Assembly: GCA_945883625.1 (NCBI GenBank)
Contig: CAMCXW010000014.1
Span: 1 to 49,558 of the forward strand
Length of the DNA stretch: 49,558 bases
Source of the DNA: Spirosoma fluviale
GTDB lineage: Bacteria; Bacteroidota; Bacteroidia; Cytophagales; Spirosomataceae
Direction: 5' to 3'
A program made the translations under genes and the position numbers. Each line of letters begins with the position of its first letter. Within the stretch, counting starts at the first letter, position 1. This document shows, piece after piece, positions 29,062 through 44,924 of this stretch. A model generated the notes under the pieces. The model saw only the letters and a program-made list of their open reading frames with translations, was not told where the DNA came from and searched no databases.

Positions 29062-29086
29062 TAGACTTCAGACGTTAGACGTTAGC
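29062..29086 (+). repeat. 7-bp repeat array at the terC 3' end
   Basis: TAGACTTCAGACGTTAGACGTTAGC-type sequence: about 3.5 units of the TAGACGT family, two bases after the TAA stop of terC. It is inverted relative to the array at 29143-29173. Confidence 0.8.
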
Positions 29087-29101
29087 TATTGAATTAAATC
29101 A

Positions 29102-29135
29102 AAAAGACCCTAAGGAATATTCCCTAGGGTCTTTT
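29102..29135. terminator. Bidirectional terminator between terC and thioredoxin gene
   Basis: AAAAGACCCTA and TAGGGTCTTTT pair, and after an A-C mismatch GGAAT pairs with ATTCC at the centre. This makes a 34-base near-perfect hairpin with A and T runs on opposite sides, suited to the two convergent genes. Confidence 0.85.
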
Positions 29136-29142
29136 AATATTT

Positions 29143-29173
29143 CTAACGTCCAGCGTCTAACGTCTGACGTCTA
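29143..29173 (-). repeat. 7-bp repeat array at the thioredoxin 3' end
   Basis: Read on the minus strand it starts with the TAG stop codon of the thioredoxin-like gene and continues in TAGACGT-family units, about 4.5 copies. Together with 29062-29086 it gives the convergent intergenic region a long inverted symmetry around the terminator. Confidence 0.8.
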
Positions 29174-29639: not shown

Positions 29640-29698
29640 TAACGTCTAATGTCCAACGTCTAACGTCTATTGTCTGATGTCTAATGTCTGACGTCTGT
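29640..29698. repeat. 7-bp repeat array between dnaN and thioredoxin gene
   Basis: About eight degenerate units of GTCTAAY, including TAACGTC, TAATGTC and TGATGTC variants. It ends exactly where the dnaN inverted repeat begins. Confidence 0.75.
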
Positions 29699-36015: not shown

Positions 36016-36020
36016 AGTAT

Positions 36021-36058
36021 AGTCATCAGTCACTAGTCGCTAGTCACTAGTCGCTAGT
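36021..36058. repeat. 7-bp AGTCRCT repeat array upstream of argD
   Basis: Five units of AGTCACT/AGTCGCT plus a partial copy lie directly before the argD start codon. The unit is also 7 bp long, but it differs from the TAGACGT family in the same gap. Confidence 0.8.
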
Positions 36059-36104
36059 TTATATTTATTCTTACCTCTTATTTGTCACTTCTCACATCCA
36101 ACCT

Positions 36105-36142
36105 CTAACGTCCAGCGTCTAACGTCTAGCGTCTAACGTCTA
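36105..36142 (-). repeat. 7-bp repeat array at the argC 3' end
   Basis: About 5.5 units of the TAGACGT/TAGACGC family, read on the minus strand. The first triplet is the TAG stop codon of argC (36140-36142). Confidence 0.85.
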
Positions 36143-37090
36143 AAAATTTGCTGCTTTGAGCCTCAACCCCGCTGATTCGTCCCAGCCGAGCATTAGGTTC
36201 ATGTTTTGAACGGCTTGACCTGAGGCGCCTTTTAACAGGTTATCGATCACGGAGCTAATTAAAATTTGGCCTTCGTGAACTTCTAGGTGCAAAAAGCATT
36301 TGTTCGTGTTGACCACTTGCTTGACATCCACCGCTTGGGGGCTGACAAAAACAAAGGGCGAATCGCGGTAGTAGTTTTCGAATAAATCAATAGCCTCTTC
36401 CTGAGTTCCCGCGAAATCCGTGTACACATTCGCCATAATTCCCCGCGTAAAATTACCGCGATATGGAATGAAGTTGACCTTAGGCGCAGGGTACTCAGAC
36501 CCCAAAACCATGCCTATTTCTGTCAAATGCTGATGTGTGAAGGCTTTATATATGCTAATATTATTGTTTCTCCAGGAGAAATGACTCGTTGGTGATAATG
36601 CCTGACCTGCACCCGTCGACCCCGTAATCGCCGTAACATGCACGGCTGATTTGATCAATCCAGTTGCAGCTAATGGCAACAAAGCTAATTCGATCGATGT
36701 CGCAAAGCAACCCGGATTAGCAATCTTGTTGGCAGTACGGATTTTTTCTTTTTGAAATTCAGGTAGCCCATAGATAAAACCTTCCGATTCATCTCGAAAA
36801 TCTGTACTTAAATCCACGATTTTGGTATGCCAAGGCACATCGTTTGCCGCTAGGAATTTCTTTGATTCCCCATGTCCAGAACATAAAAACAATACATCCA
36901 CAGGACATAGCTGATCGCAGAATCGCACATGCGTCGAGCCTAGTAAGTCGGTGTGCACATCTGAAACCAATTTCCCAGCCTGTGAATTTGACATAATACA
37001 CGTCAAAACTACATCAGGGTGGTTCACCAAAATGCGGAGTAATTCACCTCCCGTGTAACCTGCCGCACCTACGATTCCGATCTTTGCCAT
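36140..37090 (-). CDS. argC: N-acetyl-gamma-glutamyl-phosphate reductase
   Basis: The N-terminal NADP-binding fold begins MAKIGIVGAAGYTGGELLRIL. The catalytic cysteine is in ANPGCFATSIELAL near residue 130, and PYRGNFTRGIMANVY (PHxxP-like region) follows near 210. It reduces acylglutamyl phosphate to the semialdehyde, the step before argD. At 316 residues it is the shorter type 2-like length often seen in Bacteroidota. Its ATG shares one base with the argG stop (TAATG), so the two genes are translationally coupled. Its TAG stop opens a 7-bp repeat array. Confidence 0.95.
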   Translation of the reverse strand: MAKIGIVGAAGYTGGELLRILVNHPDVVLTCIMSNSQAGKLVSDVHTDLLGSTHVRFCDQLCPVDVLFLCSGHGESKKFLAANDVPWHTKIVDLSTDFRDESEGFIYGLPEFQKEKIRTANKIANPGCFATSIELALLPLAATGLIKSAVHVTAITGSTGAGQALSPTSHFSWRNNNISIYKAFTHQHLTEIGMVLGSEYPAPKVNFIPYRGNFTRGIMANVYTDFAGTQEEAIDLFENYYRDSPFVFVSPQAVDVKQVVNTNKCFLHLEVHEGQILISSVIDNLLKGASGQAVQNMNLMLGWDESAGLRLKAANF

Positions 37091-39839: not shown

Positions 39840-40868
39840 ATGTCAAAACCAATTCTCGTTATCAAGTTCGGTTCGTCTTCCATCACCCATGCAAATGGGG
39901 AGGTTAATGAACTGACATTAGCGAAAATTGCCGAGCAAGTTGCTTCGTTAAGTTCACAGTATTCCATCGTTTTAGTTTCATCAGGTGCTGTGGCTGCGGG
40001 TAAATCAGCGTTGCATAATTATAAGGCTACACTTTCAGAACGGAAGGCTGCGGCTGCCATCGGTAATCCAATTTTGATCGCGAAATACAGTCATTACTTC
40101 CAAAAATATGGCATTTCGATTGCGCAAAGTTTGTGTGAACGCCATCATTTTTCAGAGAGAGAATCCTTTCTACAATTGAAGGAAACGTACCAGGAATTAT
40201 GGCGAAGTGGGGTAATTCCCATTGCGAATGAAAATGATGTAGTTAGTAATGTCGAGTTAAAGTTTTCGGATAATGATGAATTAGCGACATTGATTGCGAC
40301 GGGATTTGGGGCGGAGAAATTATTGATATCTACTTCAGTAGGTGGTTTATTAGATGCGCAAGGTCAGATCATCCGTCATGTAGAACGCATTGATGCTGAT
40401 ATTTTACATGTGGTTAATTCGGATACATCGAGTACCGGTTTGGGAGGGATGATTTCCAAATTAACCTTTACGCGGTTAGCGACACGGATGGGAATTAAGG
40501 TCGTGATTTTCGGACTTGATCAGGGTCAGGGAATCGTAGATGCCCTCCATGAAGAAATAGGCACGGTTTTCGAGGCACAGGAGGCTTCACTTACGGCTCG
40601 CCAAAAATGGTTAGCCTCCGGAAGTCTAATTGCCGGCAAAGTAGTCTTAGACAAAGGTGCTGTAAAAGCCATCCAAAATCGCAAAAGCTTATTATCCGTG
40701 GGCGTCACCGAATACCTCGGCGAATTCGACAAAGGCGAAGTGATCGAAATCCTAGATGCCCAAAAAAATCCAATCGCCGTCGCCCGCGCCCGCTATTCTA
40801 AATCAGAATTGCAGCAGGCAAATCAGGGGATGGAAGTTGCGCATGCGGATGACATCGTTCTTTATTAG
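39840..40868 (+). CDS. proB: Glutamate 5-kinase
   Basis: The amino acid kinase domain shows VIKFGSSSITHANG at the start, VSSGAVAAGKSAL near residue 47, VIPIANENDVVS near 125 and FSDNDELATLIA near 142. GGLLDAQGQIIRH follows. The C-terminal 80 residues are a PUA-like domain (LLSVGVTEYLGEFDKGEVIEI). At 342 residues it matches ProB, which phosphorylates glutamate in proline synthesis. proA is not adjacent. The TAG stop (40866-40868) is the first triplet of a 7-bp repeat array. Confidence 0.94.
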   Translation: MSKPILVIKFGSSSITHANGEVNELTLAKIAEQVASLSSQYSIVLVSSGAVAAGKSALHNYKATLSERKAAAAIGNPILIAKYSHYFQKYGISIAQSLCERHHFSERESFLQLKETYQELWRSGVIPIANENDVVSNVELKFSDNDELATLIATGFGAEKLLISTSVGGLLDAQGQIIRHVERIDADILHVVNSDTSSTGLGGMISKLTFTRLATRMGIKVVIFGLDQGQGIVDALHEEIGTVFEAQEASLTARQKWLASGSLIAGKVVLDKGAVKAIQNRKSLLSVGVTEYLGEFDKGEVIEILDAQKNPIAVARARYSKSELQQANQGMEVAHADDIVLY

Positions 40869-40902
40869 ACGCTAGACTTTAGACGTCAGACGCTGGACGT
40901 TG
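40866..40902 (+). repeat. 7-bp repeat array at the proB 3' end
   Basis: About five units of TAGACGC/TAGACTT/CAGACGC type start at the proB stop codon. The orientation is opposite to the large array at 41405-41568, so the two flank the four-helix-bundle gene as inverted repeats. Confidence 0.85.
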
Positions 40903-40912
40903 CACTGATTTT

Positions 40913-40937
40913 GTAGAGACGCGATACTTCTCGTCTA
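40913..40937. repeat. Imperfect palindrome resembling a dispersed GTAGAGACGCGAT repeat
   Basis: GTAGAGACGCGATACTTC and TCGTCTAG form an imperfect stem. It resembles a palindromic repeat (GTAGAGACGCGAT...) that I remember as dispersed in Bacteroidota and cyanobacterial genomes. Only one copy is seen in this window. Confidence 0.4.
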
Positions 40938-41026
40938 GTTATCAAAATATATGTTTATTGATTTTATAAACTCTTTATCAGTTTTTCATTTATAGAATCC
41001 CTCTTATTTCTTTTCCTTTACTTCCC

Positions 41027-41398
41027 ATGAAGAATCAAAGGAAATTCGAAAATCTGTTAGTCTGGAAACGCTCAGTACTTCTGACCAAAAAAATCTATTT
41101 TCATTTTAATGTATCAGACGATTTCGGATTTAGAAATCAGATTCAGCGTGCAGCCATTTCAATTTCCAATAACATAGCAGAAGGTTTTGATCGTAAATCA
41201 GACCGGGAGTTTAAGCGTTTTTTAGCGATTGCTTTAGGCTCCCTAAATGAAGTTAAATCAATGGTTATTACTGCTTTTCACTTAAGTTACATTAATGAAG
41301 AGGATCAACAGGAACTAGTTGGTCATATCGATGCCATCGGTAAAATGACAAATTCCTTGATCAATTTCTTAACCAAGGAATTAGAAAAAAATAAATAA
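41027..41398 (+). CDS. Four-helix-bundle protein (23S rRNA IVS / Avd-like family)
   Basis: A 123-residue all-helical protein with the family pattern FENLLVWKRSVLL at residue 7, FGFRNQIQRAAISISNNIAEGFDRKSD near 37 and FKRFLAIALGSLNEVKSM near 66. Such proteins are encoded in intervening sequences of 23S rRNA genes, and a related fold (Avd) assists diversity-generating retroelements; the biochemical role is not established. Here it is not in an rRNA gene. It is enclosed by two inverted 7-bp repeat arrays (40866-40902 and 41405-41568) between the stop codons of convergent proB and secA, suggesting a mobile or repeat-associated unit. Confidence 0.88.
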   Translation: MKNQRKFENLLVWKRSVLLTKKIYFHFNVSDDFGFRNQIQRAAISISNNIAEGFDRKSDREFKRFLAIALGSLNEVKSMVITAFHLSYINEEDQQELVGHIDAIGKMTNSLINFLTKELEKNK

Positions 41399-41404
41399 TA
41401 TTTT

Positions 41405-41568
41405 GTCCAACGTCTAACGTCTAACGTCCAACGTCTAACGTCCAACGTCTAACGTCCAACGTCTAACGTCCAACGTCTAACGTCTAACGTCCAACGTCTA
41501 ACGTCTAACGTCCAACGTCTAGTGAACGTCTAGCGTCCAACGTCCAGCGTCTAACGTCTAACGTCTAA
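41405..41568. repeat. Large tandem array of a 7-bp repeat (GTCYAAC)
   Basis: About 23 units of GTCTAAC and GTCCAAC fill 164 bases with one interruption at about 41520-41525. Units often alternate, giving a 14-bp higher order. The array ends at the TAG stop codon of secA (41565-41567, minus strand). Confidence 0.92.
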
Positions 41569-44500
41569 GATATAACAACCGCTCTCCCACTCTCCACATC
41601 CGCCTCCACAGCCTTGTACTTCACATTTTCCTTGATGCTGCCATCAATGTACTGAACCGTAACGCGCTGATTTCTGTCCGCGATTTTAATCGCCTGACGT
41701 GGTGCGACACGCTCTTGAGTCGCTTCGGATGGGTCGTAATATCCGGGATCTTCTTGTGCGCCAGATAGGCCGCCCAACAACGATGACAATGCCTCATCTT
41801 TGCTCATCTGTAATTTAGGAGTCTTTTCTTTCGGTGCTTTTGCCGCCGATTGATTCGTCGACTGCACCGCCGGAATCTCCGCCTTAACCACAAAACTAAT
41901 CGTGTCCATATTCACCCGAGCCACAAAACGTTGGAATAAATTCACCGCCTCAAATTTGTAAATCAACAAGGGATCTTTTTGCTCGAATACGGCATTTTGC
42001 ACCGACTGCTTTAAGTCATCCATCTCGCGTAAATGCTCTTTCCACTCTTGGTCAATTAAGGTCAACGTGATGAATTTCTCCATCTCCGTAATCACTTCCT
42101 TACCCTGTGAAAGAATTGTTTTATCCGCATCCACCACAATTCCAGTGACCATTTGGCCATTCGAAATAGGTACTTGAATGCCTGAAAAACCCTGACGTTT
42201 TGCCTCTTCTGCCACTTGAATCACCTGATTCGAAATCACCTCATTCTTCGCTTTATAGTGCTGCTCAGCCGCCAAAAACAATTGTTCCGTCTTGCGATCA
42301 GGTGCCAAACGACTAAATTCCTCCGCCGTAAACGGTGGCTCCATACCCAAAATCTCAATCACCTTTAATTCTAATTCGGTGTAGTCGGTGTAGTTTGCCG
42401 ACAAATCTTGGCACACGTCAAATAAAATATTAACGATGTCCAACGATAAACGCTCGCCCAAAAGTGCATTTTGCCGACGCTTATAAATCGCATTTCGTTG
42501 GTAATTCATCACGTCATCGTATTCCAATAACCGCTTCCGAATACCAAAGTTATTTTCCTCCACTTTCTTCTGCGCACGCTCAATCGACGACGTAATCATC
42601 GAGTGCTGGATCACTTCTCCCTCTTCCATCCCCAAACGATCCATCACTTTAGCAATACGATCCGACCCAAACAAACGCATTAAATTATCCTCCAAAGACA
42701 CAAAGAATTGAGACGAACCCACATCCCCTTGACGTCCCGCACGACCACGCAACTGCCGATCGACACGACGCGATTCATGTCGCTCCGTTCCTATAATAGC
42801 CAAACCTCCCGAAGCTTTCGATTCTGGACTTAACTTAATATCCGTTCCACGACCCGCCATGTTGGTCGCAATCGTAACCTTGCCCGATTGACCCGCTTCC
42901 GCCACAATCTCCGCCTCGCGCGCATGCTGTTTGGCATTCAATACATTGTGCTGAATCTTGCGAATACTCAATAAACGACTCAATAATTCTGAGTTTTCAA
43001 CAGACGTTGTACCCACTAAGACCGGTCGGCCCGCCGTAACTAATTCCTGAATCTCCTCCGCAACGGCATTGTATTTTTCGCGGACCGTACGGTATACTTT
43101 GTCCTCGTGATCCTTTCGTTGAACCACACGATTGGTTGGGATGGATACGACGTCCAACTTATAAATCGTCCAAAACTCACCCGCCTCTGTTTCCGCTGTT
43201 CCCGTCATACCACCTAATTTATGGTACATCCGGAAATAATTTTGCAAGGTAATTGTTGCGTAAGTCTGCGATGCATCCTCCACATTTACGCCCTCCTTTG
43301 CCTCAATCGCCTGATGTAATCCATCTGAATACCGACGACCCTCCATCACACGACCCGTTTGCTCATCCACAATCTTCACTTTGCCATCGACCAAGATATA
43401 TTCGGTATCTTTTTCGAATAGGGAATAGGCTTTTAATAACTGGCTCACCGTATGAATACGGGATGCTTTTTCATTGTATTCTGAAATGAGCTGCTCCTTT
43501 TGAGCTAATCGCTCACTATCGTTCAAGTCCTTATTTTGCTCGATTTTAGTTAAATCAATCGATAAGTGAGGTAAAACGAAGAAATCAGGATTTTCTGTAT
43601 TCCCACTCATAAAGGCCAAACCTTTTTCAGTCAATTCAACCTGATTGTTTTTCTCCTCAATCGTAAACAATAAAGGCTCATCCGCTTGTGGCATCAGTTT
43701 TTGATTCTCTGCCAAATAGATTGATTCCGTCTCATTCATCAATTGCTTCATGCCGCTTTCTGACAAGAATTTAATTAATGGTTTCGACTTAGGAAGTCCA
43801 CGGTGAGCACGAAATAACGCTAACCCACCTTCTTTGCGATCTCCCGCAGCGATCAGTTTTTTAGCCTCAACTAAGAAATTTTGTACGATTTGTTTTTGGG
43901 CTTCAACCAATTTGTGAACGCGCGGTTGGAACGCCTCAAACTCCTGTTCATCACCTTTCGGAATCGGTCCCGAAATAATTAACGGGGTACGCGCATCATC
44001 AATCAATACAGAATCGACCTCATCCACCATCGCAAAATGGTGTGGTCTTTGCACCTGATCTTCTAGACTTCGTGCCATATTATCGCGCAAATAATCGAAA
44101 CCAAATTCGTTATTTGTGCCATACGTAATATCCGCCATATAGGCTTGTCGGCGCTCATCCGTATTCGGCTCATGCTTATCAATGCAATCCACTTTCAAGC
44201 CATGGAATTCAAACAAAGGTGCATTCCACTCGGAGTCACGTTTCGCCAAGTAATCATTGACAGTTACAATATGTACGCCACGTCCTGCTATCGCATTTAG
44301 GTAAGTGGGAAGTGTAGAAACCAACGTTTTACCCTCACCCGTACCCATTTCAGAGATTTTTCCTTGATGCAAGACAATACCACCGATCAACTGTACATCG
44401 TAATGTATCATCTCCCAAGTAATCTGATTGCCTGCCGCGAGCCATTGATTATGCCAAATTGCTTTTTCGCCCTCAATAACCACATTGGCTTTTTTGGATG

Positions 44501-44924
44501 CGATAAATTTATCTTCTATGGTAGCCGTAACGACTAATTTTTTATTCTCTGTAAATCGACGTGCCGTTTCCTTCACAACAGCAAAGGCTTCGGGCAAAAT
44601 GTCAAGAAGCACAATTTCCAATTGCTTGTTGCGCTCTTCGTTTAATTTATCAATTTGTTGGAAAAATGTCTCCTTCTCATCCACATCAGCCGTAGCCATT
44701 CCTTGCGTATGCAATTCAGTAATTTGCGTGTCGATTTCCAAGAGAAATTCGGCAATACGCTGTTTAAACTCGGATGTTTTGCCACGAAGTGCATCATCTG
44801 AAATATCATGCAGCTGAGCGTAGGCGTCTTTAATTTTATCAACAATCGGAAGAATTACTTTGATGTCGCGGTCCGATTTGGTACCAAATATCTTTGTAAC
44901 GGTTTTGCTTAGTATCGAAAACAT
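41565..44924 (-). CDS. secA: Preprotein translocase ATPase SecA
   Basis: At 1119 residues it is the long Bacteroidota form. The DEAD motor is intact: [16 protein letters not shown] (Walker A) near residue 191, [17 protein letters not shown] near 300, and [14 protein letters not shown] with [21 protein letters not shown] in the second lobe. An insertion of about 150 residues between motor parts ([15 protein letters not shown] onward) is typical of this phylum. The C-terminal zinc finger is absent; the protein ends in a Lys-rich linker and a short beta segment ([21 protein letters not shown]). It drives Sec export. The TAG stop coincides with the edge of the 7-bp array, and secA converges with proB and the four-helix-bundle gene. 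Confidence 0.97.

Follow-up and report, generated by a model that had tools for sequence, protein, structure and literature searches.

S23 family genes of Spirosoma, and many in other bacteria, lie between inverted short-repeat arrays; in the genus the array type follows the protein phylogeny

The window analysed here, a stretch of 49,558 nucleotides from Spirosoma fluviale (contig CAMCXW010000014.1), carries between the convergent genes proB and secA a small gene of the S23 (23S_rRNA_IVP) family, bracketed by two arms of 7-bp repeats that face inward (Table 1). An initial annotation of this DNA had described an intervening sequence (IVS)-type gene enclosed by five repeat units on the left and about 23 inverted units on the right, and this arrangement is indeed present. 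The five heptads of the left arm (AGACGCT, AGACTTT, AGACGTC, AGACGCT and GGACGTT, at 40867-40901) are consecutive, the first being overlapped by the proB stop codon TAG (40866-40868). The right arm, for which Tandem Repeats Finder (TRF) gives a period of 7 and 23.9 copies, extends to the stop codon of secA (CTA at 41565-41567); each arm begins at the stop codon of the neighbouring gene. The heptads vary in sequence, that of the repeat being degenerate, and the two arms differ in length, 5 vs ~23 heptads. The 703-bp unit contains 23 words of the form GTCYARC/GYTRGAC, whereas 1000 shuffled 703-bp stretches of the window averaged 0.2 such words and never had more than 2.

The protein encoded between the arms matches PF05635 with 109.7 bits, against a cut-off of 33.8, and no other Pfam match was found in this gene at E values up to 0.01. 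Its predicted model consists of four helices (predicted local distance difference test, pLDDT, 95.6), which bears out the four-helix-bundle, IVS-type protein proposed initially. In a fold search the closest solved relatives are 2GSC and 2RLD, with template modelling (TM) scores on the query of 0.79-0.87 and 0.74-0.79, respectively. Both crystal entries contain five chains apiece, which is suggestive, and only that, of a pentamer. These S23 structures were solved in 2006-2007, their PDB titles read hypothetical or unknown and, to our knowledge, S23/IVP proteins have no established function. The family is nonetheless widespread, with matches in 157 of the 198 genomes sampled from the window's phylum and up to 16 per genome.

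Avd of the diversity-generating retroelement ranks next in the fold search, the Avd chains listed having TM scores of 0.68-0.77 on the query. Avd (PDB 4DWL, 8UB7 and others) has the same fold but shares 9-12% identity, and it partners a reverse transcriptase, which is mostly absent from the S23-bearing genomes of the genus. Indeed, the reverse transcriptase partner that defines such a retroelement (RVT_1, PF00078) was not found in the S. fluviale genome (2.3 Mb in 86 contigs, 88.8% complete). It is present in only 5 of 38 genus genomes, and a search of the 28 S23-bearing genomes of the genus gave no RVT_1 match in 23; six of 99% completeness (G005, G015, G017, G019, G020 and G033; genomes are numbered G and loci L) possess S23 genes and no RVT_1. 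Dependence on a reverse transcriptase, prompted by the Avd fold, was rejected as a general requirement: the enzyme is not needed.

A family search found S23 genes in 43 of 59 genomes, comprising the S. fluviale genome, 36 of the genus and 22 of the order. Many genus genomes are incomplete (62-99%), and absence of the gene is therefore uncertain. We read 71 loci, including all 60 genus matches, and counted the 8-mers shared inversely between the 350-bp flanks with a threshold of at least 8; two loci without a downstream flank (L105 and L113) were excluded. The median number of inversely shared 8-mers was 23 over 69 loci, whereas direct sharing had a median of 2. Every one of the 58 genus loci with both flanks is framed by inverse arrays; the threshold was also reached by 3/65 control windows, by 3.5% of 1380 block shuffles and by 10.8% of 4600 swapped flanks. 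When periods 5-10 were compared, period 7 appeared in 59% of 118 genus flanks and in 2% of 662 controls. The second S23 gene of the S. fluviale genome lies between hemE and a GTPase gene (Pfam matches URO-D and MMR_HSR1; the name engB was assigned in this analysis). It also has inverted arrays on both sides, but here the repeat is AGTCCGRAGG and recurs every ~15 bp. Since this second gene is framed by another repeat, the arrays are tied to the gene and not to one sequence. Stop codons were considered as the origin of the repeat sequence, given 600 TAG vs 266 CTA in the upstream flanks of 69 loci; this was rejected, as several types (AAGTTCA, AGAATCA and AGTACCA, by eye) are stop-free.

Outside the genus, framing was examined in a named set (L140-L219), the best 80 of 572 related stretches among those listed from a scan of named genomes. 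These loci come mostly from Bacteroidota, with single ones from Desulfobacteraceae, KSB1, Chloroflexi, Omnitrophica, Cyanobacteria, a Methanophagales archaeon and others. At least eight inverse 8-mers were shared in 33 of the 75 loci with both flanks, as against 9.5% of 1002 control windows. Among periods 5-10 only period 7 stood out, in 26% of 159 flanks vs 2% of 662 controls (period 8, 2%), and AG-N5-AG was the most enriched step, at 8.4 and 7.3 times the control. Taking the longest run of AG or GG at 7-nt steps as the arm length, exactly five heptads was the mode in both arms, with 25/78 upstream and 24/80 downstream, six being reached in 9 and 5. Control runs had their mode at two, and 22 of 2186 attained at least five. 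Across 78 loci of this set, at least one arm had four or more heptads in 59, both arms in 32, and both arms had exactly five in 10. Each arm of L157, from the laboratory strain Mucilaginibacter flavus, has five heptads. A second set of 30 loci from the window's phylum gave at least four heptads in 32/60 arms vs 24/658 controls; exactly five, found in 15 of the 60, was the commonest count among these 32. Twelve loci from viral contigs, four of them near-copies by their arms, had exactly five heptads in 3 upstream and 2 downstream arms. A conserved AGAC in the innermost heptad (positions -5 to -2), seen in 21/75 vs 17/311 other units of the discovery set, was dropped as it did not replicate (2/27 vs 9/104).

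Two further observations concern this set. At seven loci of Pedobacter, Flavobacterium, Cytophaga and others (L162, L163, L171, L172, L200, L203 and L206), one pair of co-directional neighbours repeatedly encloses an S23 element. By eye these neighbours look like fatty-acid beta-oxidation genes, a hot slot inside an operon; L163, which has these neighbours, is titled Limnohabitans and may be mis-binned. The downstream arm of L195 (Chitinophagaceae) has AGATGAC heptads, a rotation of the heptamer GACAGAT of the Coxiella 23S rRNA IVS, which may be chance for a 7-mer.

The type of the arms follows the protein. The flank 7-mers of the 60 genus loci cluster into 17 types, and on the protein tree the type changes 16 times, which is the minimum; shuffled labels gave a mean of 47. 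Loci sharing either flank were assigned to one slot, and the hemE-engB slot (slot 0) holds five types, c1, c2, c6, c13 and c14. On a species tree of 33 genomes built from SecA, HemE and MutS, c2 in this slot requires 6 changes for 6 genomes, at least 5 of them forced by well-supported branches, and c1 requires 4 changes for 5 genomes, at least 3 of them forced. These types are scattered over the species tree; the cassette at this slot either passes from species to species or reflects the sorting of an old polymorphism.

A comparison of the proB-secA slot (30 loci read, 6 without proB in reach) revealed the empty sites that the initial annotation had suggested looking for. The gap measures 11 bp in seven genomes (G009, G010, G013, G016, G026, G028 and G029); it is also 11 bp in G034 if 12 bp of proB are subtracted from its 23-bp reading, and 21 bp in G036. 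The same slot contains c5 arms with an S23 gene in four genomes (G000, G006, G022 and G031), a c11 S23 gene in two (G011 and G035) and gene-less arrays of other types in nine. Gene and arms are replaced together, as a cassette, at a conserved intergenic slot. At hemE-engB the S23 gene has opposite orientations in G000 and G006 within similar arms, as after an inversion. Furthermore, type c4 occupies three slots, twice in G033 (the two proteins being 81% identical) and in one case in a slot where two relatives have c9, and c9 itself occurs in two slots. Movement happens, yet it looks rare.

Other repeats accompany these slots. The c3 arrays in the proB-secA gaps of G007, G027, G014 and G008 (L052, L054, L055 and L060) alternate short hairpins, for example GCCACTTCGTGGC, with TTAGTC tags, so that c3 units are small palindromes themselves, unlike plain heptads. 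A second, palindromic repeat family of the form GTAGAGACGCGATACnTCGCGTCTCTAC, resembling repetitive extragenic palindromic (REP) sequences, stands beside the S23 element of the window (40913-40938) and is also found in the mutS-nadK gap of G001, G009, G010, G013, G016, G022 and G031 (L267-L269, L271-L273 and L275). The labels of S23, proB, secA, hemE, the GTPase, mutS and nadK are backed by tests.

Arms without a gene occur at other gene ends of the same genomes, including several places in the window (Table 1). The gene-less pair at 29062-29173 has the same polarity as the S23 element, and two-armed gene-less pairs in the S. fluviale genome face inward in 7/7 cases, counted by eye. As a separate observation, the arms of this pair surround a terminator-like hairpin (AAAGACCCTAAGG...CCTAGGGTCTTTT, by eye), so that a terminator is framed instead of a gene.

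Table 1. Position and support of the S23 element, its neighbours and gene-less arrays in the window
Feature	Position	Strand	Basis
proB (glutamate 5-kinase), left neighbour	39840..40868	+	Pfam AA_kinase and PUA
Left arm, 5 inward-reading AG/GG-led heptads	40866..40905	+	Sequence reading
S23 / 23S_rRNA_IVP gene, 123 aa, four-helix bundle	41027..41398	+	PF05635; 2GSC, 2RLD; model and fold search
Right arm, ~23 heptads, left-arm unit inverted (GTCYAAC on +)	41405..41568	-	TRF
secA, right neighbour, convergent with proB	41565..44924	-	Four SecA Pfam domains
Gene-less array pair: GTTAGAC-type arm, terminator-like hairpin, GTCTAAC-type arm	29062..29173		By eye
Single GTCYAAC-type array	29640..29696		TRF
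TAGTCRC-type array	36020..36058		TRF; in other species of the genus, S23 genes are framed by TAGTCRC arrays
Single GTCYARC-type array	36100..36143		TRF

Gene-less arrays match the S23 gene resident in the same genome more often than permutation predicts. We analysed 51 of 60 secA and hemE slots, nine being dropped for a missing partner gene. Thirty-one had no S23 gene, and 23 of these gave an array signal. The S23 type of the own genome was the best match in 11 of the 23, compared with a permutation mean of 3.1 and a maximum of 10 in 5000. Among the 12 unmatched slots, nine belong to genomes without any S23 gene, and one of these nine (G034) probably has no array. A similar dependence was seen for TAGTCGC: dimers outside the S23 locus number 1, 7, 8, 10, 15 and 16 in the c2 genomes (12 of the 15 in G012 being near two contig ends), vs 0, 0, 0, 0, 0, 0, 2, 2, 2 and 4 in ten non-c2 genomes of the same clades (A+B; p = 0.002). 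The counts of G003 (4) and G059 (1), which are not in the tree, were omitted. GTCYAAC dimers are found in 7/59 genomes, four of which (G000, G006, G022 and G031) carry a GTCYAAC-framed S23 gene. In the other three (G003, G011 and G051) no such gene was found, one of the two S23 genes of G051 being read and G003 having no secA match; the proB-secA slot of G011 holds an S23 gene of another type.

These data bear on the idea that the gene is a passenger, that is, that the arrays arise by slippage and local duplication, that S23 genes happen to sit inside them and that type tracks the protein through shared inheritance of slots. Such a view would account for the small number of slots, only 12 for 60 S23 genes, and for the persistence of arrays without the gene. 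It also agrees with the mutS-nadK gap, where at the mutS stop codon G028 exceeds G034 by 14 bp, the length of exactly two heptads. The difference resembles local growth in a genome that is 98% complete and in which no S23 gene was detected. We nevertheless consider it unlikely. Unlinked arrays match the resident S23 type beyond expectation, TAGTCGC arrays elsewhere track c2 despite its scatter over the species tree, and framing recurs in other families with different repeats. Apart from this argument, the two extra GGTATTA-type heptads at the mutS stop (L264 vs L263) are a possible snapshot of the birth of an array.

Two other explanations place the function of the arms in a transcript or at gene ends. 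According to the first, the arms fold in the RNA as a stem with the S23 open reading frame (ORF) in the loop, and RNase III cuts the stem out as in the 23S rRNA IVS, making insertion near genes harmless. In its favour, the predicted fold of the 703 nt reaches -186.8 kcal/mol (z = -8.7 over 20 shuffles) and pairs the outer portions of the arms, and the 23S IVS of Coxiella, with an S23 ORF, a stem and RNase III excision, offers a precedent (PMC4990558). Moreover, the arms of one locus match in register, with 0.662 vs 0.552 at other positions (15 loci, permutation 0.0005) and, more weakly, 0.60 vs 0.55 (35 loci). However, between the arms G-U wobbles are not in excess over A-C mismatches (26 vs 23; 61 vs 58), and the RNA duplex is not better than with shuffled unit order. 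Since neither signal is present, an inverted duplication at the DNA level would explain the match in register just as well. Selection for an RNA stem was rejected on the same grounds, the strong fold of the whole unit following from the inverted arrays themselves. In addition, the hemE-engB slot lies between divergent genes, and an rRNA match at Rfam gathering thresholds was obtained in 0/14 loci outside the Bacteroidota assignment. This explanation appears very unlikely.

According to the second, S23 is a host regulator, a cellular nucleic-acid-binding protein that forms a TRAP-like ring on AG-led heptads where genes end, either in DNA or in the transcript; it would regulate termination, mRNA ends or its own expression, and the arrays would be immobile regulatory sites. 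Arrays often follow directly after stop codons, several enclose a terminator-like hairpin, all seven gene-less pairs counted by eye in the own genome point inward, and the S23 genes of the named relatives often lie between co-directional genes (by eye), all of which would suit such a role. On the other hand, orthologous gene ends in sister species have no arrays or arrays of another type, the types at the hemE-engB slot are scattered over the species tree, and the absence of wobble excess and duplex gain applies here too. We regard this explanation as improbable.

The layout has been likened in the initial annotation to REP elements and their transposase. REPs are palindromes of 20-40 bp, most with GTAG or CGTC tags, and their RAYT protein is a tyrosine transposase; the likeness (PMC3116915, PMC3733652) is that short repeats sit at the ends of genes, in many cases paired as inverted doublets, that they flank a dedicated gene, that several repeat groups exist, each near its own protein, and that gene-less copies occur genome-wide. 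In contrast, the arms described here are tandem degenerate heptads of variable length, modally five in the named set, not tagged palindromes, and no catalytic site is known in S23, a four-helix bundle; no tyrosine transposase gene lies between the arms. The S23 element is therefore not a member of the REP/REPIN-RAYT systems, since neither transposase nor tagged palindrome is present, and the comparison holds for the layout only.

In the Coxiella 23S IVS, GACAGAT heptamers precede an S23 ORF, the ends form a stem of 28 bp and RNase III excises the whole (PMC4990558). It shares with the S23 element the protein family, an ORF between complementary inverted ends and tandem heptamers before the ORF. 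The element of the window differs in lying between the protein-coding genes proB and secA and not inside a 23S rRNA gene; not being in rRNA, it is not an IVS. Arrays of the heptamer TAACTGA, known from Beggiatoaceae, Cyanobacteria and some Bacteroidetes, are likewise intergenic tandem 7-mers of patchy distribution with no known mechanism of spread, but in the main genome studied they are mostly direct arrays upstream of start codons (PMC4679880, in which the term S23 is absent). A link with these arrays was rejected, since loci L001-L258 contain no TAACTGA dimer. Among the open-licence papers listed in literature searches, no title or abstract opening was found that links S23 genes to heptad arrays outside rRNA, which is weak evidence of novelty.

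Taken together, the unit consists of a gene for a small four-helix-bundle protein and, on either side of it, an inward-facing arm of short tandem repeats, in many cases AG-led 7-mers. The arms accompany the gene, their type follows the protein phylogeny, and in the named set they most commonly have five heptads. We propose that this 'S23 element' is a protein-cognate repeat system acting as an exchangeable, occasionally moving cassette, a reading to which we give about even odds (roughly 0.5) and whose mechanism is inferred.

Several results weigh against this proposal. First, the framing is not uniform: in other families, among order-level relatives, only 6/11 loci pass the threshold, and direct sharing of 8-mers also reaches at least 8 in 19/75 loci of the named set. 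Against a stricter control, with both strands counted, runs of at least four heptads occur in 12/73 other intergenic windows of the same loci vs 94/160 S23 flanks, so gene-less arrays exist in named-set loci too. The count of five is not general either. The arms of 22 S23 genes from three order-level genomes are less regular and five is no peak there (exactly five in 1/22 upstream and 1/22 downstream arms), and over all 30 downstream arms of the second set two is the commonest count. Second, the 60 genus genes lie in just 12 intergenic slots, and type and slot ancestry are partly confounded. Third, no protein pair within a genome exceeds 81% identity (the best of 47 genus pairs), hence there is no recent multi-copy burst, and no target-site duplication is visible at proB-secA, where the 11-bp empty sites were compared with occupied genomes that are not close to them.

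The dependence of the arrays on the gene is also uneven. Among independent pairs for TAGTCGC, 4 went the same way, 0 the opposite way and 1 was tied at a threshold of five dimers (p = 0.125, not significant alone), and at one dimer there were 3, 0 and 2. The association of c1 is only graded: six genomes with the gene have 21-74 dimers and ten that lack it have 5-54 (p = 0.008, counting copies in the own slot). For the GGTAATA type, dimers are equally frequent in genomes where no S23 gene was detected and in those with a matching one: 41, 62, 63 and 112 in four genomes with the matching gene, 0, 17, 21, 29, 48, 57, 67, 105 and 178 in nine without (67 and 105 in two that are 98% complete) and 0 to 35 in the remaining genomes. 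Given these counts and those of GTCYAAC, the arrays outlast the gene or do not need it. A check suggested initially was whether protein-bearing genomes have more arrays; this holds for TAGTCGC, which follows c2, and by degrees for c1, but not for the GGTAATA type. Two observations had been named as counting against a repeat-spreading unit: arrays abundant in genomes lacking the protein, which is the case in one clade, and a protein not adjacent to arrays elsewhere, which is not, as the protein adjoins arrays far beyond this locus. A simple transposon is disfavoured by the abundance of GGTAATA-type arrays without the gene, by the few slots and by the fact that no nuclease or target duplication was seen. 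Of the mobile element with short inverted ends envisaged initially, the exchangeable cassette, with c4 in three slots and c9 in two, stands; a recent burst and a target duplication are missing, and only PF05635 is found between the arms.

How could such a cassette work? An S23 pentamer may recognise an arm, one heptad per subunit, and the two inverted arms would allow it to hold both ends of the element. One turn of B-DNA takes 10.5 bp, and TRAP binds single-stranded nucleic acid round a ring; because a 7-nt step is out of phase with B-DNA, a single-stranded nucleic acid wrapped round the S23 ring would be an attractive possibility. Arms of the protein's own type could then be spread, lengthened or kept alike via host replication or recombination, and gene-less arm pairs would be non-autonomous products. 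Since no reverse transcriptase is needed, the copying step would have to use host enzymes or an activity of S23 itself; we know of no report of such an activity. The S23 element would then be a slow, recombination-dependent selfish cassette in which a binding protein replaces the known transposases. A bolder and rather doubtful extension is that S23 is a large family of sequence-programmed repeat-spreading proteins, each pentamer reading five AG-led heptads, one per subunit, and causing its own heptad type to be inserted, extended and swapped among intergenic slots; a single, hitherto unrecognised kind of mobile element would then have given rise to much of the 7-bp repeat DNA in Bacteroidota as well as to the 23S rRNA IVS.

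Many related genes in other bacteria are similarly bracketed, and every protein branch has a repeat of its own. This pattern suggests a protein that reads the repeats, possibly the partner so far missing from a widespread kind of repetitive DNA. The tie of each protein branch to its own repeat gives S23/IVP proteins a direct, testable ligand. If the proposal is true, the heptamer arrays noted in bacterial genomes would gain a protein partner, and the intervening sequences of rRNA would perhaps fall within a wider class.

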